A stretch of DNA of 44,453 nt from a virus, in the IMG/VR virus record IMGVR_UViG_3300017605_000168, positions 1 to 44,453 of that record; one strand, 5' to 3'. Within the stretch, counting starts at the first letter, position 1; the number at the start of each line of letters is the position of its first letter. Below the pieces are notes generated by a model that ran no database searches, was not told where the DNA came from, and was given only the letters and a program-made list of their open reading frames with translations. This document shows, in pieces, positions 8,241 to 42,858 of this stretch. The position numbers and the translations under genes are program-made.

Positions 8241-9377
8241 ATGGCAAACGCCCTTGGCCTATACGATCCCCTGTTCTACGCACAGGAAGGCATCATCCAA
8301 CTCAAGAAGGCGCTCGGCATGGCCGCTCGCGTCTATCGTGGGTTTGATCGGACCCCGCAGGAGCGCGGATCCACGATCATGATCAACAAACCCTCGACGT
8401 TTGTTGCTCAGGATGCACCTTCGACGGCGCAGGACATCGCACCGGGACAGACCAGCATGACGCTGGCGTTCTGGAAGGAAGTGAAATTCTTCCTGACGGA
8501 CAAAGAACTCACCTTCAGCGGCGAACGCATCATCAACGATCACATTGTTCCGGCCGCACGCGCGCTGGCGCTGGACGTCGATACGCGGCTGTTCGGTCTC
8601 GCGGAAGACATTCCGTGGTTCGTCGATACGACCGCTCCGGCGGCTGTTTCGGACATCACCGCCGCGCGCAAGGTGCTGTTTTCGAACGGCGTCCCGATGG
8701 ACGAGAACGATCTGTTCCTCGGCGTCGATCCGCAGTTGGAATCGGAATTTCTCGCCCTGCCAGCCTTCTCGCAGGCGTCCGGCGCTGGCGACGTCGGCGT
8801 GAACACGCAGTTGCGCGGGACGATCGGCACGAAATTCGGATTCAACGTCTTCGCCTCCCAGAACGTGCCGACACACGTTGCTGGTGTCTCCGCTGACGCG
8901 GTCGGTGCGTTGACGGCGACCGCGAACGCAGGCGCGACGCAGATCTCTTTCAACGCGGTCACGGCATCGGGCACGTTCAAGCGCGGCGATTCGTTCGTGC
9001 TGGCTGGCAATACGCAGCGATACGTCTTCGCCGCCGATGCGACGGCCGACGGCACAGGTCTCGTGACGAACGCGTCGGTCTTTCCGCCGCTGGTGCAGAC
9101 CTACAACTCCGGCGTCGTGATCACGGCGTCGCTCTTGAACCACGTCAAGAACATGGCGTTCCACCGGTCAGCGTTCGCGCTGGCGATGGCTCCGCTGTCG
9201 CGTCTCGGCGCGGAACTGGGCGCGAAGATCGAAACCGCCGTGGACGAGGATTCGGGTCTCGCGATTCGGTCGCGTATGTTCTACGTCGGAGACGCGTCAA
9301 GGGTCTATGTTGCGTTGGATATCCTCTACGGATTGAAGACGCTGGAGCCGAACGCCGCCGTTATCCTTCGCGACTAA
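8241..9377 (+). CDS. major capsid protein, P22-coat type
   Basis: The 378-residue product resembles the P22 gp5 coat family: an early YRGFDRTPQERGSTI segment (about 32-46), a HK97-like core, and a C-terminal HRSAFALAMAPL (about 306-317) followed by YVGDASRVYVALDILYGLK (about 351-369). A beta-rich Thr/Ala insertion around residues 215-290 may correspond to the family's insertion (I) domain. It forms the icosahedral shell with the scaffold encoded upstream. The length is slightly under P22 coat (430 aa), consistent with a reduced insertion. Confidence 0.87.
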   Translation: MANALGLYDPLFYAQEGIIQLKKALGMAARVYRGFDRTPQERGSTIMINKPSTFVAQDAPSTAQDIAPGQTSMTLAFWKEVKFFLTDKELTFSGERIINDHIVPAARALALDVDTRLFGLAEDIPWFVDTTAPAAVSDITAARKVLFSNGVPMDENDLFLGVDPQLESEFLALPAFSQASGAGDVGVNTQLRGTIGTKFGFNVFASQNVPTHVAGVSADAVGALTATANAGATQISFNAVTASGTFKRGDSFVLAGNTQRYVFAADATADGTGLVTNASVFPPLVQTYNSGVVITASLLNHVKNMAFHRSAFALAMAPLSRLGAELGAKIETAVDEDSGLAIRSRMFYVGDASRVYVALDILYGLKTLEPNAAVILRD

Positions 9378-17580: not shown

Positions 17581-17596
17581 TTCATAGGAGTGACAA

Positions 17597-18016
17597 ATGT
17601 CAAACGCAGTTTCAGCAACCGGGATTTCCGTTAAGCGTGCGACGATCGCCGCTCCGACGGTCTTCACCACGATCGGTGAAGTCATGACGGCGACGCCGCC
17701 GGGATTCAGCCGAAACAAGATTGAGACGACCACGCACAACGACGGTGCCGAGTCGTATGTGCTCGGCATCCTGCGACAGAAGGATCCGTCGTTCCGGGTC
17801 AATTGGGTCGGATCCGACTCGACTCACGACACGTTGCTGGATGATATGCTCAACAACGTGAAGGCGGTCTGGCAGTTCGCGACGTTGTCGGGTATCACGC
17901 TCACTGGTCCGGGCTACGTGCTGCGATTCGAGCCGGTCGATTGGGCGACCGATTCAGCGTTGCAGGCGGACATCGGCCTGACGTGGGCGGGACCGATCAC
18001 CGTCGTCACGCCGTAA
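17597..18016 (+). CDS. major tail tube protein
   Basis: The 139-residue product begins with a Thr/Ala segment and TTIGEVMTATPPGFSRNKIE (about 25-44), followed by a T-T-H-N-D-G-A-E-S-Y stretch. These are typical of siphovirus tube proteins. The rest is beta-rich with LRQKDPSFRVNWVGSD. It forms stacked hexamers around the tape measure. TAGGAGTGAC before ATG 17597 provides a good RBS. Position just before the chaperone frameshift pair is canonical. Confidence 0.82.
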   Translation: MSNAVSATGISVKRATIAAPTVFTTIGEVMTATPPGFSRNKIETTTHNDGAESYVLGILRQKDPSFRVNWVGSDSTHDTLLDDMLNNVKAVWQFATLSGITLTGPGYVLRFEPVDWATDSALQADIGLTWAGPITVVTP

Positions 18017-37075: not shown

Positions 37076-37105
37076 TTGACAGTTTGTCATTTCATACCCT
37101 AGGAT
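37076..37105 (+). promoter_or_regulatory. putative promoter ahead of HNH gene
   Basis: TTGACA (37076-37081) is followed after 18 bases by TAGGAT (37100-37105), a 4/6 match to -10. The spacer holds GTTTGTCAT, close to a half-site of the four palindromic operators downstream. Because AGGA at 37101-37104 may also be the RBS of ATG 37112, either a leaderless transcript or a different -10 is possible. Confidence 0.5.
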
Positions 37106-37111
37106 TCCGGC

Positions 37112-37528
37112 ATGGCGAACCGACACGACCGAGGCGGAAACGGATCCTACGGCATGAATTGGATCCGCAAGGAACGACGCCTTGCGATCTACCTCCGAGA
37201 CGGTCTCTCGTGCCTATGGTGCGGTCTCACGGTTGAAGACGGGATCCAGCTAACGCTCGATCACGCGGTTCCACGGTCGCGACACTTGAACCACGCATCC
37301 GATAATCTGTTCACGGCGTGCATATCCTGCAACGGTTCGCGCAAGCACTGGTCGGTCGCAACGTTCGCGTGGACAATGGCGCAGAGGTTCGACGGGTTGA
37401 TTCCAGCCTCAACAATCGTCGAGAACATCCGATACCAGTTACGCCAGCCGGTTGACGTCGAAACCGCCAAAGCCATCATTCAGCGGCGCGGATTCAAAGC
37501 CGCTCTGTCGCTGAAGAACATCGCGTAA
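37112..37528 (+). CDS. HNH endonuclease
   Basis: The 138-residue product carries a full HNH-type signature: CLWCG (C34/C37), LTLDHAVPRSR (about 47-57, with D50-H51), DNLFTACISCNG (about 64-75, with C70/C73/N74). The two Cys pairs bind structural zinc. The gene stands alone after the late block and before the first operator-promoter repeat. It could be a homing nuclease, a packaging accessory or a host-attack enzyme; the location at the early edge does not decide. Confidence 0.88.
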   Translation: MANRHDRGGNGSYGMNWIRKERRLAIYLRDGLSCLWCGLTVEDGIQLTLDHAVPRSRHLNHASDNLFTACISCNGSRKHWSVATFAWTMAQRFDGLIPASTIVENIRYQLRQPVDVETAKAIIQRRGFKAALSLKNIA

Positions 37529-37556
37529 ACTCCGAAATTTCCTGAGCGAATATCGG

Positions 37557-37588
37557 CATTTGACATATAGAATGACAAATGAGATGAT
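37557..37588 (+). promoter_or_regulatory. operator-promoter repeat, copy 1
   Basis: An imperfect palindrome at 37557-37581 consists of arms CATTTGACAT and ATGACAAATG with a 5-base centre (ATAGA); the arms differ at one pair. TTGACA (37560-37565) lies inside it, and GATGAT (37583-37588) follows at 17 bases as -10. Similar sequence extends about 15-20 bases upstream (TGAGCGAATATCGG). The gene start is 37637. No other repeat of this type was found outside 37-42 kb. Confidence 0.8.
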
Positions 37589-37594
37589 TCTCTG

Positions 37595-37616
37595 GTCGGC
37601 GCAATTCGGCGGCGAC
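37595..37616 (+). promoter_or_regulatory. 5' leader hairpin, copy 1
   Basis: GTCGGCGC (37595-37602) pairs with GCGGCGAC (37609-37616) in 7 of 8 positions around loop AATTCG. It lies close to the predicted transcription start. An RBS GGGAG follows before ATG 37637. Copies 2 and 3 share the position and loop type. Confidence 0.6.
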
Positions 37617-37636
37617 GGAAACCGGGAGACAGCGAC

Positions 37637-37921
37637 ATGGCACGAACGAGACAGACGGTCAACGTGAAAGCGATCATCGAAAAGGTCAACCAGTTCAACG
37701 CGACCAGCAAGGTGAGCGCTGACATCCGTCATGGTCAGAACGTGCTCGCGGAGACCATCCTGCACGCGGCAAACGCGTATGCGGGATTCGGGTATCTGAC
37801 AGCGGCGAATGTGCCTGCTGGCGAACTGCCGGGAATCATCTACGGCGACAGGGCCGGAAACGGTTCGGACAACCAGTATCCGGACGAGTCGAGAATCTTT
37901 TTCTACACGTCGAAGCTGTAA
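37637..37921 (+). CDS. hypothetical early protein, 94 aa
   Basis: The product begins MARTRQTVNVKAIIEKVNQFN and contains AYAGFGYLTAANVPAG (about 48-63). This plan, helical front then a Gly/Tyr-rich centre, recalls small early proteins of other phages but has no known function. It is the only gene between operator copies 1 and 2. GGGAG precedes its ATG with 8 bases of spacing. Confidence 0.7.
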   Translation: MARTRQTVNVKAIIEKVNQFNATSKVSADIRHGQNVLAETILHAANAYAGFGYLTAANVPAGELPGIIYGDRAGNGSDNQYPDESRIFFYTSKL

Positions 37922-37932
37922 GCAGGGCATGG

Positions 37933-37964
37933 CATTTGACAAATAGAATGACAAATGCCATACT
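37933..37964 (+). promoter_or_regulatory. operator-promoter repeat, copy 2
   Basis: The same palindrome occupies 37933-37957 with one base changed (CATTTGACAA arm start). TTGACA is at 37936-37941 and CATACT at 37959-37964 as -10 (17-base spacer, 4/6 match). It follows gene 37637 directly and precedes the 38009 operon. The upstream flank is less like copies 1 and 4. Confidence 0.8.
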
Positions 37965-37973
37965 CTCTCTGTC

Positions 37974-37989
37974 AGCGCGATTGGGCGCT
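37974..37989 (+). promoter_or_regulatory. 5' leader hairpin, copy 2
   Basis: AGCGC (37974-37978) pairs with GCGCT (37985-37989) around GATTGG. Relative to copy 3 (GGCGC/GCGCC) both sides of the closing pair have changed together, which is a compensatory change. GAAACGGGAG follows as in copy 3, with ATG 38009 eight bases after GGGAG. Confidence 0.6.
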
Positions 37990-38008
37990 CGAAACGGGAG
38001 ATACGAAA

Positions 38009-38107
38009 ATGAAGCTGGTCCTGAAGAGAAAAGAATTCAAGAAGCTGAGCAAGGGCGCGATTTCGATGTTGTTGGGCGCTGGCGTTTCGATCACGGTGCA
38101 GCGATGA
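38009..38107 (+). CDS. short basic peptide, 32 aa
   Basis: The first ORF after operator copy 2 encodes a 32-residue Lys-rich amphipathic peptide (MKLVLKRKEFKKLSKGAISM at the front). It has a strong RBS (GGGAG) and overlaps the next ATG (ATGA at 38104-38107). It could be a leader peptide coupling translation, or a genuine small protein. The function is unknown. Confidence 0.5.
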   Translation: MKLVLKRKEFKKLSKGAISMLLGAGVSITVQR

Positions 38108-38400
38108 AAGCCGCAATCGCAACGACTATTCTTAAGCAGTTGGGAGGGATAGGATTCGCGGTCATGACTGGCGCGAAAGACTTCGTCGGTCTGGAATCCG
38201 GATTGATGTTCCGGATTCCCAAGGCGAAGGATGGAATCAACCGCGTGCGCGTGGTTCTGACGCCAGCAGACGATTACACGGTCGAATTCTGGCGCACGCG
38301 CAGGACGTCTGCGACGCTGGTCGAGACGCGCGACAGGGTCTACTGCGACCAGCTACAGGCCGTGTTCACGTCAGTGACGGGTTTACATACGAGGTTCTGA
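38104..38400 (+). CDS. hypothetical early protein, 98 aa
   Basis: The ATG overlaps the stop of the 32-aa peptide. The product starts with a hydrophobic helix (AAIATTILKQLGGIGFAVMTG) followed by a beta-rich centre (NRVRVVLTPADDYTVEFW) and an ETRDRVYCDQLQAVF end. An upstream in-frame extension to 37936 would read through the operator and leader, so it is not favoured. No family is recognised. The stop overlaps the next gene (TGATG). Confidence 0.65.
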   Translation: MKAAIATTILKQLGGIGFAVMTGAKDFVGLESGLMFRIPKAKDGINRVRVVLTPADDYTVEFWRTRRTSATLVETRDRVYCDQLQAVFTSVTGLHTRF

Positions 38401-38588
38401 TGAAGTCAGCACTGCAAGTCGGTCAACGCGTCCGCGATATTCTCGGCCATCGTTACGACGTGGTCGAGGTATCACCAGACGGCTATCGCGTGAAAGTCCA
38501 GCCGCTGACGCCGATCGGCACGCCAGCGACGTTATATCCGCTCGGCGTGCCGGTCTGGGGGTTCCGATCAGATTTTCGAGAGGAGTAG
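38400..38588 (+). CDS. hypothetical small beta-rich protein, 62 aa
   Basis: The product resembles an SH3-like small barrel in pattern (VGQRVRDILGHRYDVVEV then YRVKVQPLTPIG). It starts within the previous stop codon region (TGATG at 38398-38402) and is followed by the next gene after 3 bases. The function is unknown. Confidence 0.6.
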   Translation: MKSALQVGQRVRDILGHRYDVVEVSPDGYRVKVQPLTPIGTPATLYPLGVPVWGFRSDFREE

Positions 38589-38591
38589 GCG

Positions 38592-38792
38592 ATGGTTCTA
38601 CACGAAGACGTGATCATGTTGCGTCGTAAGGGACAGGCTGCGCTGGAACGGCTGCACGGTAAGACGTCGCGCGTTCTATCAGCGATGAAGGAACTGGGCG
38701 AACTCGACGAGAAGGCGACTCGCTGGACGTCAGCGGACGAGCGGCGGTTCAAGGATCTGGAAGCAATTATCACGGCAAAGGACAACCAGTAA
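38592..38792 (+). CDS. hypothetical helical protein, 66 aa
   Basis: A charged, mainly helical protein with RRKGQAALERLHGKTSRV and LGELDEKATRWTSADERRF segments. GAGAGGAGTAGGCG before ATG 38592 gives an RBS. It overlaps the next start (TAATG at 38790-38794). No family is recognised. Confidence 0.6.
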   Translation: MVLHEDVIMLRRKGQAALERLHGKTSRVLSAMKELGELDEKATRWTSADERRFKDLEAIITAKDNQ

Positions 38793-38914
38793 TGTTGAGA
38801 ATTCTTTTTGCGTTCTTGCGCGCGCTGACCATCAGCGGTGTGCGTGGACGTCGGCCGGGGCGCTCGATGGCACGTCGCGCTGGTTATCGCGCGGTGCGAA
38901 AGATCTTCCGATGA
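38792..38914 (+). CDS. Arg-rich peptide, 40 aa
   Basis: A 40-residue ORF with a hydrophobic start (MLRILFAFLRALTI) and a very basic end (RGRRPGRSMARRAGYR). It is locked to its neighbours by start/stop overlap on both sides (TAATG at 38790-38794, ATGA at 38911-38914). Nucleic-acid or membrane binding is conceivable. The short length makes the call tentative. Confidence 0.45.
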   Translation: MLRILFAFLRALTISGVRGRRPGRSMARRAGYRAVRKIFR

Positions 38915-39258
38915 CGAACCTTTACTACAACGTGAGTCCGCGCTATACCGGCGGCTCGCCAGCGCAGGTGACGCTCCGGATCGCTGACCAAGTTGCGCGC
39001 GAGGAACAGACCGCGCATGCGAGGGCGCTCACCGGCATCTACGGTGACGAAGAGCGAGAAAGAGCGGCGCAAGGGCTGCGCGGTATCTCTGAAGAAGTCA
39101 GCGAACGCGCGGACGCGTGGATCGTCCGAGACCTGATAACCGGTGAGCGGTTCGTCCGACCGTTCACAATCTACGGCGAGACGGCGCTTCGACAGTCGCG
39201 CAGGTTCTGGCGACTGCGGCAGAAATACGAGCTACCGCTGGAAACGGAGTTGAAGTGA
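38911..39258 (+). CDS. hypothetical early protein, 115 aa
   Basis: The product is rich in Arg and Glu, with helices around residues 20-60 and a beta/turn part near DAWIVRDLITGERFVRPFT (about 68-86). It overlaps both neighbours by single stop/start junctions. I do not recognise the family. Confidence 0.65.
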   Translation: MTNLYYNVSPRYTGGSPAQVTLRIADQVAREEQTAHARALTGIYGDEERERAAQGLRGISEEVSERADAWIVRDLITGERFVRPFTIYGETALRQSRRFWRLRQKYELPLETELK

Positions 39259-39503
39259 TGTTTTACATCCTGCTAGTCGTGACGCCAGCCGGATTCGTAT
39301 CGACATGGATCACGGACGACGTTCACGAAGCGTCCAGTCCGCTCTTCGGTCCGCGTCGCTGGCAGGATGCGCTAGAACTTCTCCCGGTGACGGCAACCGA
39401 GATTCACGTTCGAATCGAGGCAAATGCCGTGCAATGGCCGGATCGTATTGCAGGCAAATCGACGACGACAGGAGTCTGCTCATGGAACGAAAAGAGTTTG
39501 TAA
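39258..39503 (+). CDS. hypothetical early protein, 81 aa
   Basis: Starts at ATG 39258, which overlaps the preceding TGA; GTG 39255 is an in-frame alternative. The front (MFYILLVVTPAGFVSTWI) is hydrophobic but reads more like beta strands than a membrane anchor. It overlaps the next ORF by 22 bases. The role is unknown. Confidence 0.6.
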   Translation: MFYILLVVTPAGFVSTWITDDVHEASSPLFGPRRWQDALELLPVTATEIHVRIEANAVQWPDRIAGKSTTTGVCSWNEKSL

Positions 39504-39607
39504 GGACAATCTTCAAAAGCGCCGAGTGGGAAGGCCTACTCGCTGACGGTTGGGTCACGATCTGCGTGAACAGCCAGAACGTCGCACTGATGGTGAAGTC
39601 GTCATGA
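39482..39607 (+). CDS. hypothetical peptide, 41 aa
   Basis: A short ORF inside the end of the previous gene: MERKEFVRTIFKSAEWEGLL at the front and a beta-like WVTICVNSQNVALMVK end. GGAGTC about ten bases upstream may serve as RBS. ATGA overlaps the next start at 39604. Support is the tight packing. Confidence 0.5.
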   Translation: MERKEFVRTIFKSAEWEGLLADGWVTICVNSQNVALMVKSS

Positions 39608-39816
39608 TTCGCGAGGGAAAGCCGGTGATGATCGCCTGGGTCTCGCCAGAAGGAATCGACGTCACGCATCTGGACCGCAAACCGATCGACGCGATCGAAT
39701 TGCGATGCGCCGGAGCAGGTTGGCGCTGGCACGACTTCGACGGCAACGAATGGGGTTCGGCAGGAGCGGCAATCAACGACGAGATAGTGCCGCGATGGGT
39801 GAAAAAGGAAATATAG
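39604..39816 (+). CDS. hypothetical early protein, 70 aa
   Basis: Translation probably starts at ATG 39604 overlapping the previous stop. The product has IAWVSPEGIDVTHLD and a Trp/Gly-rich CAGAGWRWHDFDGNEWGSAG centre (about residues 35-54), suggesting a small beta fold. A longer in-frame start at 39550 is less likely because of overlap. Family unknown. Confidence 0.6.
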   Translation: MIREGKPVMIAWVSPEGIDVTHLDRKPIDAIELRCAGAGWRWHDFDGNEWGSAGAAINDEIVPRWVKKEI

Positions 39817-39825
39817 GATCAAGCC

Positions 39826-40005
39826 ATGACCGAAGACGAATACGTGAGAACGCAAGCGATTATCAGGATTCGAATTGCAAATTCATGTATGCGCGATGCT
39901 GGTCCTTTAGACGGCGTTGCGAACAGGAAATTGATCGCGGCCATCAAAGCGACAGAGCGCGTCCTACAGATTCTCATGGACGAAGAAAAACAGGAACGAA
40001 CATGA
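39826..40005 (+). CDS. hypothetical helical protein, 59 aa
   Basis: A small, helical, charged protein (EYVRTQAIIRIRIANSCM; later LIAAIKATERVLQILMDEEK). Its TGA overlaps the ATG of the YkgJ-like gene (ATGA at 40002-40005). It may be translationally coupled to that gene. No function is apparent. Confidence 0.55.
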   Translation: MTEDEYVRTQAIIRIRIANSCMRDAGPLDGVANRKLIAAIKATERVLQILMDEEKQERT

Positions 40006-40436
40006 ATCCGTTCAACCGAACGCAATGCGCGTGCGATCGTTGTGTCCAGTGTTGCAAACGCCAGCCCGGACCGCTGGCCGTCGGGGACTTTGAACGGATC
40101 GCGAGTTTCATGCGACTCGATTTAGACAGAGCGAAATCGTTCTTCCGCAATTCTCCGGGCGCAGTGGTATCTGTCGCCGGAGAACCGTATCGGATCCGAA
40201 CGATCGTGCCTGCCGCAGATCGATCTGGTAGATGCGTATTTTTGGACAGAGACGATCGCTGCCAGATTCACGAAGTCGCGCCGTTCGGATGCGCGTTTTT
40301 TGATATGCACATGGCGCCAGACGTCGCGAACGTTCGCGCGATCTGGTATCTCAGGGAAATCGACAGCGACGAGTCGTATGGGCGGCTACGCCGTTCGCTG
40401 CAATTCGCTGACACCTACAATCCGACGCACGCGTAG
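40002..40436 (+). CDS. YkgJ-family Cys-cluster protein, 144 aa
   Basis: The product has a CACDRCVQCCKRQPGPL segment (about residues 8-24) with C-x2-C-x2-CC, and later CVFLDRDDRCQIHEVAPFGCAFF (about 77-99). This layout is characteristic of the YkgJ/Fe-S or zinc cluster family of unknown enzymatic role. It closes the copy-2 gene group; operator copy 3 follows within 30 bases. The longer in-frame extension to 39705 is rejected. Confidence 0.78.
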   Translation: MNPFNRTQCACDRCVQCCKRQPGPLAVGDFERIASFMRLDLDRAKSFFRNSPGAVVSVAGEPYRIRTIVPAADRSGRCVFLDRDDRCQIHEVAPFGCAFFDMHMAPDVANVRAIWYLREIDSDESYGRLRRSLQFADTYNPTHA

Positions 40437-40465
40437 GAGCATGAGAATTCCGGAGCATTTTGCTG

Positions 40466-40497
40466 CATTTGACATATAGAATGACAAATGAGATACT
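40466..40497 (+). promoter_or_regulatory. operator-promoter repeat, copy 3
   Basis: The palindrome at 40466-40490 is identical to copies 1 and 4. TTGACA (40469-40474) and GATACT (40492-40497) are 17 bases apart. The upstream flank (GGAGCATTTTGCTG) is loosely like the others. It drives the DUF6011 gene and the two ORFs after it. Confidence 0.82.
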
Positions 40498-40506
40498 TCT
40501 CTGGTC

Positions 40507-40522
40507 GGCGCGATTGGGCGCC
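40507..40522 (+). promoter_or_regulatory. 5' leader hairpin, copy 3
   Basis: GGCGC (40507-40511) pairs with GCGCC (40518-40522) around GATTGG. The following TGAAACGGGA matches copy 2. The RBS is GGAG about 9 bases before ATG 40548. Its predicted position is within a few bases of the transcript start. Confidence 0.6.
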
Positions 40523-40547
40523 TGAAACGGGAACGGAGAAGAAAATC

Positions 40548-41249
40548 ATGGTCAGCAAATACGCCGGTTACTGCAAATCCTGTCGAGGCGAAATCAAGGT
40601 CGGAGAAACCATCAACTGGACGAAGGGTTATGGTGCGGTCCACGCGAATCCGGCAACCTGCCGAGCGTTCGAAGCCGCGCGCAAGGCGTTCGTTCCGGAA
40701 CCGACTGGCGTTACTGCTGACGGCTCCAAGATCGTGGCGTTTCTGACCGCTGCGCGCGAGCGCGGTCTCAAGTTCCCCAAGGTTCGCTTCGCTGACGCGT
40801 CCGGCCGGGAAATCTCGCTGACGCTGGCTGGTTCGACCAGCAAATACCCGGGCGCGGTGCAGGTCAAGCTGGCTGGCAACTGGATCGGCCGGATCGAATC
40901 GACCGGTAACGTTGCTGGTCCGCTCTCGCGGGAAGCGGCGCTGGTCGAGACGCTACGCGCAATCGGCGCGGATCCAGCGACAGCGGCGAAGACCTACGGC
41001 CAACTGACCGGACACTGCTCGTTCTGCGCCAAGGAACTGACGGACGCCGGATCGATCGAAGTCGGCTACGGTCCGGTCTGCGCGCGGAAGTATGGTCTGC
41101 CGCACACGCCGAAGGGATCCGGCAAGGTCGTTTCCTTGCCGGACGTCGCGCTCGCGTCCGGCGCGGACGTGGACGAAACCGCATACGACTCCGCTCCGGA
41201 TTCTGTGGACCGTGCGGACGCCTACTACAGCGCGATCGGAGGCTGGTAA
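40548..41249 (+). CDS. DUF6011-domain protein with zinc sites, 233 aa
   Basis: The start is ATG 40548, after the leader; the in-frame extension to 40488 would cross the leader. An N-terminal zinc-ribbon-like YCKSCRGEIKVGE (about 8-20) is followed by a beta-rich centre. A DUF6011 motif lies at about residues 160-188: TGHCSFCAKELTD then SIEVGYGPVCARKYGLP. The last ~40 residues are acidic. These proteins are often found with DNA-metabolism genes in phages but lack a proven role. Its TAA overlaps the next ATG. Confidence 0.82.
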   Translation: MVSKYAGYCKSCRGEIKVGETINWTKGYGAVHANPATCRAFEAARKAFVPEPTGVTADGSKIVAFLTAARERGLKFPKVRFADASGREISLTLAGSTSKYPGAVQVKLAGNWIGRIESTGNVAGPLSREAALVETLRAIGADPATAAKTYGQLTGHCSFCAKELTDAGSIEVGYGPVCARKYGLPHTPKGSGKVVSLPDVALASGADVDETAYDSAPDSVDRADAYYSAIGGW

Positions 41250-41416
41250 TGAAGGACCGCGCAGCGAACCGGATGATGCTAGCGAAATCAGATTTCTGGG
41301 AGGCGCGTCATTACTGCGCCTCCGCTTGCCGCCGCGCACGACGGACCGCAAAGCGAGACGCAAAGCGTGCATTCCGCAGAACGTTCAACCGGCACGTTGC
41401 CCTGAGGGAGTCGTAA
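41249..41416 (+). CDS. basic Cys-containing protein, 55 aa
   Basis: The product is Arg/Ala-rich with a YCASACRRARRTAKRDAKRA segment (about 22-41). It resembles small basic phage peptides that follow DUF6011-type genes, but has no known activity. The start overlaps the previous stop (TAATG at 41247-41251). It is too short for certainty. Confidence 0.5.
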   Translation: MKDRAANRMMLAKSDFWEARHYCASACRRARRTAKRDAKRAFRRTFNRHVALRES

Positions 41417-41418
41417 TA

Positions 41419-41658
41419 ATGGAACCAAGAACGCCATACGACCTGCTACAGGCAGGGATCGATAGCCTTCCGTGCGGGTTCAGCCTGCGGCACGCGTTTC
41501 GCGACCGACTCCGACACTACAAGAACTGTCCGGATGCGTATTGCCAGAACCGACTCAGGGAATCGCGCAACGTATCGATGATGCTGGCGGACGCGATTCG
41601 ACGACGAAACGCGGATCGGTGCCCGGACTGCGGTCTCGGATCCTGCAACTGTGAATAG
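41419..41658 (+). CDS. zinc-ribbon-like protein, 79 aa
   Basis: An ORF starting at ATG 41419, two bases after the preceding stop. It has an N-terminal helix, C-x4-C near NCPDAYC (about residues 36-42) and a terminal CPDCGLGSCNCE cluster (about residues 68-79). Metal binding is likely. GAGGGAG upstream is a possible RBS. The longer frame from 41092 lies inside the DUF6011 gene. Operator copy 4 follows 34 bases later. Confidence 0.6.
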   Translation: MEPRTPYDLLQAGIDSLPCGFSLRHAFRDRLRHYKNCPDAYCQNRLRESRNVSMMLADAIRRRNADRCPDCGLGSCNCE

Positions 41659-41691
41659 GAGTAAACACCGGAAATACTGAGCAAATACTGG

Positions 41692-41723
41692 CATTTGACA
41701 TATAGAATGACAAATGCGAGTAT
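41692..41723 (+). promoter_or_regulatory. operator-promoter repeat, copy 4, leaderless gene
   Basis: The palindrome (41692-41716) is identical to copies 1 and 3, and its 14-20 base upstream flank (CTGAGCAAATACTGG) closely matches copy 1. TTGACA lies at 41695-41700. GAGTAT (41718-41723) is a weak -10 at 17 bases. The next ATG is 41730, about where a transcript would start, so the leader hairpin is missing. Confidence 0.75.
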
Positions 41724-41729
41724 AGATAC

Positions 41730-41933
41730 ATGACGAACGAATTGACGGCGGCGGAGCAGCTGGTTTTTAGCGCGGTCGAAAACGAACTTTGCACCGAGAC
41801 CGACCACGAGCAGGCGATCGTCAACGCGTGGGGCAATCGTGGCGCGTATATCGACGGCCATGAATCCGGCACGACGTTCGAAGAATTCGAGAACGCATTC
41901 CGCGTTCACTACGGTTGGGCAGTGGAGAACTGA
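41730..41933 (+). CDS. hypothetical early acidic protein, 67 aa
   Basis: The product is acidic and mostly helical (TAAEQLVFSAVENELCTETD, then TTFEEFENAFRVHYG). No RBS is seen upstream; ATG 41730 would be at the 5' end of a transcript from copy 4. It is followed by a second small gene after two bases. Family unknown. Confidence 0.6.
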   Translation: MTNELTAAEQLVFSAVENELCTETDHEQAIVNAWGNRGAYIDGHESGTTFEEFENAFRVHYGWAVEN

Positions 41934-42191: not shown

Positions 42192-42410
42192 ATGATCGAA
42201 GCCGCTGTCAATCATCTCGTGAAGGAACTCGCGGTCAAAGGCGCGCGGAAGTTGACTACGGCCGACGGAAACCGCGCGCTTCGCGTCGTCGCGAATCAGG
42301 CTGGCTTTCCTGACGCGTTCAGCGGGTATGGTGCGCTCGTCGCGAGAACGGCGAACGCTCTTCTGGGCGGCACGCTTCACGGTTCCAATCGATTGGAACG
42401 TGCCAAATAA
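42192..42410 (+). CDS. hypothetical protein, 72 aa
   Basis: A small Ala/Val-rich helical protein with KGARKLTTADGNRALRVVAN at about residues 17-36. AAGGAG at about 42178-42183 sits at good spacing from ATG 42192. Its last 34 bases overlap the 3' end of the minus-strand gene (convergent). No family is recognised. Confidence 0.6.
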   Translation: MIEAAVNHLVKELAVKGARKLTTADGNRALRVVANQAGFPDAFSGYGALVARTANALLGGTLHGSNRLERAK

Positions 42411-42808
42411 TCCGCGCGCCAACGTTGTTCGGCCAGCGCACGCTCAGCTTCGACATGGTGAAGGCGGCACAAACGATGAAATTCACGCGGTTTGTCGTAG
42501 TCGGGATGATGGTTTTCGGCCTTGGTCAGACCGCAGACTTCGCACGGACCCTTGGGAAGTTCTCCGCGACACTGGAGAACGCGCGTATACGACCGACAGC
42601 GGTTTTTCTTTTGTTCTTCAGGGGTTATCGGTCGTTTGGTCGCGTTCTTCCGCCGCTCGCGCATTCTGGCGGCATGGCACGCGCGGCAATAACTATGAAG
42701 GCCGCGACGATGGACCATACGACGCCCGATTCGGCAGCAGGCGCAGCGGTTTTGCCGAAGTGCGTGAAACAGGCGCTCAGTTGAATTCGGAGCAACGTTT
42801 ACAACCAT
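42377..42808 (-). CDS. minus-strand HNH/zinc-finger protein, 143 aa
   Basis: Reading the complement from ATG 42808 gives a product with two zinc-type sites. CACC...YCRACHAARMRERR is early (about residues 22-48); later comes GPCEVCGLTKAENHHPDYDK (about 87-106) with HRLCRLHHVEAER. This combination, Cys-x2-Cys, HH-x-DY and C-x2-HH, matches HNH-like phage nucleases or zinc proteins. It is the only convincing minus-strand gene here and probably arrived by insertion. In-frame GTG 42853 is an alternative start. The two + strand ORFs across it lack any such motif. Confidence 0.75.
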   Translation of the reverse strand: MVVNVAPNSTERLFHALRQNRCACCRIGRRMVHRRGLHSYCRACHAARMRERRKNATKRPITPEEQKKNRCRSYTRVLQCRGELPKGPCEVCGLTKAENHHPDYDKPREFHRLCRLHHVEAERALAEQRWRADYLARSNRLEP

Positions 42809-42828
42809 ATTTGCTATTGTAACGTTGC
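42792..42828. promoter_or_regulatory. divergent palindrome, probable operator/promoter
   Basis: GCAACGTTTACAA (42792-42804) and TTGTAACGTTGC (42817-42828) form an inverted repeat with a single bulged T. On the plus strand TGCTATTGT (42812-42820) is an extended -10 candidate for the ligase gene. On the minus strand TACAAT (complement of 42816-42821) is a 5/6 -10 whose start would fall at ATG 42808. No good -35 is visible on either strand. Confidence 0.55.
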
Positions 42829-42858
42829 CGCACGCGTGGAACACAGGAGACACGACCG

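Follow-up and report, generated by a model that had tools for sequence, protein, structure and literature searches.

Four copies of a 25-bp dyad overlap four predicted sigma70-type promoters in a 44,453-bp stretch of viral DNA (the whole of which is referred to here as the window), and we assign a probability of roughly 0.6 to the reading that these dyads, judged from the sequence, act as operators through which a repressor absent from the window co-switches four transcription units. In the proposed model, the promoters would be read by the host RNA polymerase, and each of them would be covered by one dyad operator, which spans the -35, the spacer and the extended -10. A repressor, dimeric or of higher order, would bind CATTTG(A/T)CAT-N5-ATG(A/T)CAAATG, block the polymerase and in this way switch the four small units together; its gene would lie outside the fragment, either in a missing part of the phage genome or in the host. 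In three of the units, a conserved hairpin is predicted at the 5' end of the RNA, with a ribosome-binding segment behind it, and the two together probably tune stability or translation, and the fourth unit would produce a leaderless transcript. The weak -10 of copy 4 and the lack of a regulator among the genes found in the window count against the operator model.

A pattern search of the window with CATTTGACATNNNNNATGACAAATG identified three sites with 0 mismatches (copy 1, 37557-37581; copy 3, 40466-40490; copy 4, 41692-41716) and one site with 1 mismatch (copy 2, 37933-37957), all on the plus strand, which agrees with the positions and the single deviating base of copy 2 given in a preliminary description of this DNA. 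The chance expectation for the element is 0.00, as determined from 100 dinucleotide shuffles, and the matches on the minus strand are only the four plus-strand sites in reverse reading; the earlier statement that the element is confined to four sites in the window holds as well. Copy 1 consists of CATTTGACAT-ATAGA-ATGACAAATG and copy 2, in which one base is changed, of CATTTGACAA-ATAGA-ATGACAAATG, and the 5-bp centre ATAGA is identical across the four copies. No further half-sites with at most one mismatch are present in the window, apart from a degenerate pair at 17590-17606. All four elements share one orientation, and each of them is located in an intergenic gap 5' of a gene. Several identical dyads within one 4-kb region could also be non-transcriptional repeats, for instance iteron-like sites for replication, partition or recombination; however, the shared orientation, the placement of each copy 5' of a gene and the presence of TTGACA with a -10-like hexamer at a 17-bp spacing in each of them make this explanation highly improbable.

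In 4/4 copies, TTGACA starts at position 4 of the element and is followed after 17 nt by a -10-like hexamer, as had been noted before. The -35 and -10 hexamers are located on the plus strand at 37560-37565 and 37583-37588 (GATGAT) in copy 1, at 37936-37941 and 37959-37964 (CATACT) in copy 2, at 40469-40474 and 40492-40497 (GATACT) in copy 3 and at 41695-41700 and 41718-41723 (GAGTAT) in copy 4. Each copy possesses an extended -10 (TGn), the TG of which is the 3'-terminal dinucleotide of the dyad, and the spacing of the hexamers falls within 16-18 bp throughout, with copy 4 being weak. A generic promoter scan reported copies 1 to 3 (10/12, with TG before the -10), and GAGTAT of copy 4 was absent from its output. 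We infer promoter activity from these features and place the predicted starts 7 nt past the -10, at ~37595, ~37971, ~40504 and ~41730, respectively.

The inverted repeat that overlaps the promoter in these intergenic copies is a near palindrome, as was already described: 9/10 pairs of the arms match around ATAGA, and copy 2 has one extra mismatch. The broken pair is caused by an A in place of a T in the left arm, and it is this A that completes a perfect TTGACA. In simulations in which the promoter hexamers were fixed, such a dyad in such a register was found in ~3e-5 of random sequences (1/30,000), and any dyad with 10-bp arms that is as good in ~0.3-0.5% of them. The mean pairwise identity of the four copies is 98% in the element versus 46% in the -10 zone; it amounts to 52% over the last 15 bases 5' of the element, to 23% and 29% further upstream, and, 3' of the -10 zone, to 42% across the leader and to 27% past it, a likeness that does not represent four independent observations, since the copies may be recent duplicates. 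Copies 1 and 4 are also alike upstream, as the preliminary description had stated, with 80% of the 15 bases 5' of the element in common. The high identity within the 25 bp compared to the -10 zone indicates that the dyad, more than the promoter, has been kept alike, and two traits, the sharp edges of the dyad and the lower identity of the -10 compared to the spacer, speak for a site bound by a protein rather than for simple duplication of a promoter. The layout of promoter plus dyad in the former proposal, in which a single dimeric regulator would govern four transcripts, fits the sequence, and the identity profile points to the dyad as the unit that is conserved.

The centre of the dyad is located near -26, and the spacer comprises 17 bp. 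A dyad centred at -26 in a promoter with a normal 17-bp spacer is at a position typical of repressors. This arrangement is more in keeping with a repressor than with an activator of class I/II or of the MerR type; activation of the latter type was rejected, as the spacer is 17 bp long and not 19-20 bp.

Copies 1 to 3 are followed by a common 5' leader of ~30-45 nt, absent from the preliminary description, which contains a hairpin and then a GAAAC-GGGA segment, and with a start 7 nt past the -10, the RNA would have the hairpin at its 5' end. The leader of copy 1 (37592-37640, plus strand) contains a variant hairpin, followed by GGAAACCGGGAGA and the ATG at 37637 of a gene encoding a 94-aa protein (37637-37921, plus strand), which has distant relatives in three IMG/VR contigs. 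This protein was considered as a ribbon-helix-helix autoregulator and rejected, as its weak model (pLDDT 66) has two helices followed by strands rather than this fold. The leader of copy 2 (37968-38011, plus strand) comprises the hairpin AGCGC-GATTGG-GCGCT and GAAACGGGAGA, and the likely transcription unit of this copy includes a 98-aa gene (38104-38400, plus strand) assigned to phrog_9437. The leader of copy 3 (40501-40551, plus strand) comprises the hairpin GGCGC-GATTGG-GCGCC and GAAACGGGA, and the gene behind it encodes a 233-aa DUF6011 protein (40548-41249, plus strand); a gene for a CxxCxxCC protein, which may chelate zinc or iron, is found directly 5' of this copy (40002-40436). The closing pair of the hairpin is altered on both sides, with A-T in the second copy and G-C in the third. 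The leader hairpins fold barely better than shuffled sequence (z -0.5 to -1.2), so that a role of the hairpin is only a suggestion, and a search of Rfam gave no match. Such a leader is missing from copy 4, for which the predicted start coincides with the A of the ATG at 41730; this would yield a leaderless transcript of a gene for a 67-aa acidic protein without family match (41730-41933, plus strand).

No exact copy of the element was obtained from IMG/VR. A generalised palindrome was found there in two AT-rich contigs as single sites, and a relaxed pattern matched at least 119 stretches, none of which, among the matches listed, resembles a related promoter family. Searches of IMG/VR with the portal, the major capsid and the DUF6011 protein detected no close relatives, and with named phages, DNA similarity was absent or at chance level. 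The repeat lists of Dinoroseobacter phage R5C, whose capsid marks it as a distant relative, hold no comparable repeated promoter. The 25-bp element is also absent from the three contigs that encode a relative of the copy 1 gene (L025, L026 and L027). These contigs carry their own repeated sigma70-like promoters in 3, 3 and 5 copies, respectively, whose sequences differ from CATTTGACATNNNNNATGACAAATG, and they resemble the present case in having 3-5 phage-specific promoters of this type around a homologue of the copy 1 gene. In L025, the promoters at 8510, 12834 and 15092 possess a TACCT-N6-AGGTA dyad in the spacer (3/3 copies), and those of L026 (9224, 9503 and 10289) and L027 (1104, 3034, 3607, 9509 and 12415) are without a consistent dyad. 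Repeated promoters are not rare, a dyad within them is not universal, and the examples of L026 and L027 imply that repetition alone is no proof of regulation. A strong constitutive promoter cassette could have been spread by recombination without any regulator dedicated to it; in this case, the dyad would be incidental or reflect a preference of the polymerase. Besides the promoters without a consistent dyad in L026 (3 copies) and L027 (5 copies), the fact that copies 1 to 3 share the leader as well as the promoter is in line with this idea. However, the -10, which is normally the best-kept part of a promoter, is far less alike than the dyad (46% versus 98%), and chance dyads as good as the present one are rare, for which reasons we regard a cassette of this kind as possible but rather unlikely.

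Terminase, portal and capsid genes are recognisable in the window, along with further families of head, tail and lysis proteins. The elements are located between the structural and lysis genes and a gene for an ATP-dependent ligase, in a segment for which we infer the label of an early region. No replication module was seen in the window, and in phage R5C (78 kb), which provides the best capsid match, the replication genes come after the tail genes; part of the genome is therefore probably missing, and the record probably represents a fragment of a phage genome. Among the window proteins scanned against Pfam and PHROGs, no DNA-binding regulator was identified, with one family listing behind this search covering 25 of 32 families. 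Likewise, the Pfam matches of the scanned proteins include no HTH family, and six-frame searches of the window for GntR, HTH_3, RHH and integrase were empty, in agreement with the earlier remark that the window lacks a regulator gene.

A phage fragment without a regulator is also what would be seen if the dyads were operators of a host transcription factor, which would place four phage units under host physiology. One lead is a GntR regulator of the FadR type: the symmetric arms (C)ATTTGTCAT-N5-ATGACAAAT(G) are found in B. macuxiense and B. tropiciagri in the intergenic region that separates a gene of the GntR/FadR family from a TRAP-transporter operon read in the opposite direction, and three more Bradyrhizobium genomes have them next to the orthologous GntR gene. 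The palindrome TTTGTCATAATGTATGACAAA is conserved beside the FadR-type GntR gene in Bradyrhizobium (L009, 3164-3188; L010, 5324-5348; L030, L031 and L032) and is likely to be the operator of this adjacent regulator. However, the 5-bp centres differ (ATAGA in the phage versus AATGT in Bradyrhizobium), and the pattern is also present in 13 further stretches of the genome collection, most of them from unrelated organisms, which means that an identical half-site can be coincidence. Control by a host factor is unlikely on balance, and the resemblance of the arms offers a weak lead on the type of regulator. Still less probable, and in our view very doubtful, is the specific version in which a regulator of host metabolism, such as a GntR protein of the FadR type or a similar one, would control four small operons and the base change in the half-site also builds the -35; if it were true, gene expression during infection would respond to host nutrition.

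Operators of the lambda type are dyads on early promoters, at which the repressor excludes the polymerase. The present elements are similar in that a dyad overlaps the promoter; however, there is one dyad per promoter, and neither a divergent switch region nor an integrase nor a cognate repressor gene nearby was found in the possibly incomplete record. The stoperators of cluster A phages such as L5 are multi-copy repressor sites, which are short, asymmetric and mostly located within transcribed regions. They likewise occur in many copies in one phage genome, whereas the elements described here are symmetric and confined to promoters. A closer parallel is provided by the cluster K mycobacteriophages TM4 and Adephagia, which carry extended start-associated sequences (ESAS) (PMC3203893, PMC11373665). 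ESAS are defined by imperfect inverted repeats of 15-17 bp with a variable spacer and the 13-bp SAS GGGATAGGAGCCC (PMC3203893, PMC12699233). Adephagia possesses seven ESAS copies of 46-47 bp, which combine SigA-like hexamers 17-18 bp apart with an inverted repeat, and the authors of that study regarded it as plausible that a regulator yet to be identified represses them (PMC11373665). As in the window, several intergenic SigA/sigma70-like promoters with an inverted repeat are found per phage, and in many cases a conserved segment close to the start codon comes after them. However, the sequences are unrelated, the dyad described here is near-invariant with 10-bp arms and a fixed 5-bp centre, and its leader has a hairpin instead of the 13-bp SAS; no GGGATAGGAGCCC was found by reading between element and start codon, which sets the elements apart from ESAS proper. 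On sequence grounds, the elements would belong with the multi-copy, dyad-bearing phage promoters, a kind that is already known. They add a clean, near-invariant operator-promoter family with two kinds of leader from an uncultured phage that is distant from the named phages searched, and its regulator, if found, would help to show which protein recognises the inverted repeats in phage promoters of this repeated kind, a point on which the work on cluster K ESAS gave no answer (PMC11373665).

Further features are located close to the elements. A promoter without dyad, TTGACA-18-TAGGAT, which includes TTGACAGTTTGTCAT, is found at 37076-37105, 5' of an HNH gene at 37112. In addition, an HNH/endonuclease-like gene (42377-42853) is encoded on the minus strand, opposite to the otherwise plus-strand region around it. 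A separate long inverted repeat, GCAACGTTTACAA...TTGTAACGTTGC (42791-42828), precedes the ligase gene (42859, plus strand); it was kept apart from the element, as its sequence differs. This repeat is also located at the 5' end of the minus-strand HNH gene and could represent a divergent operator.
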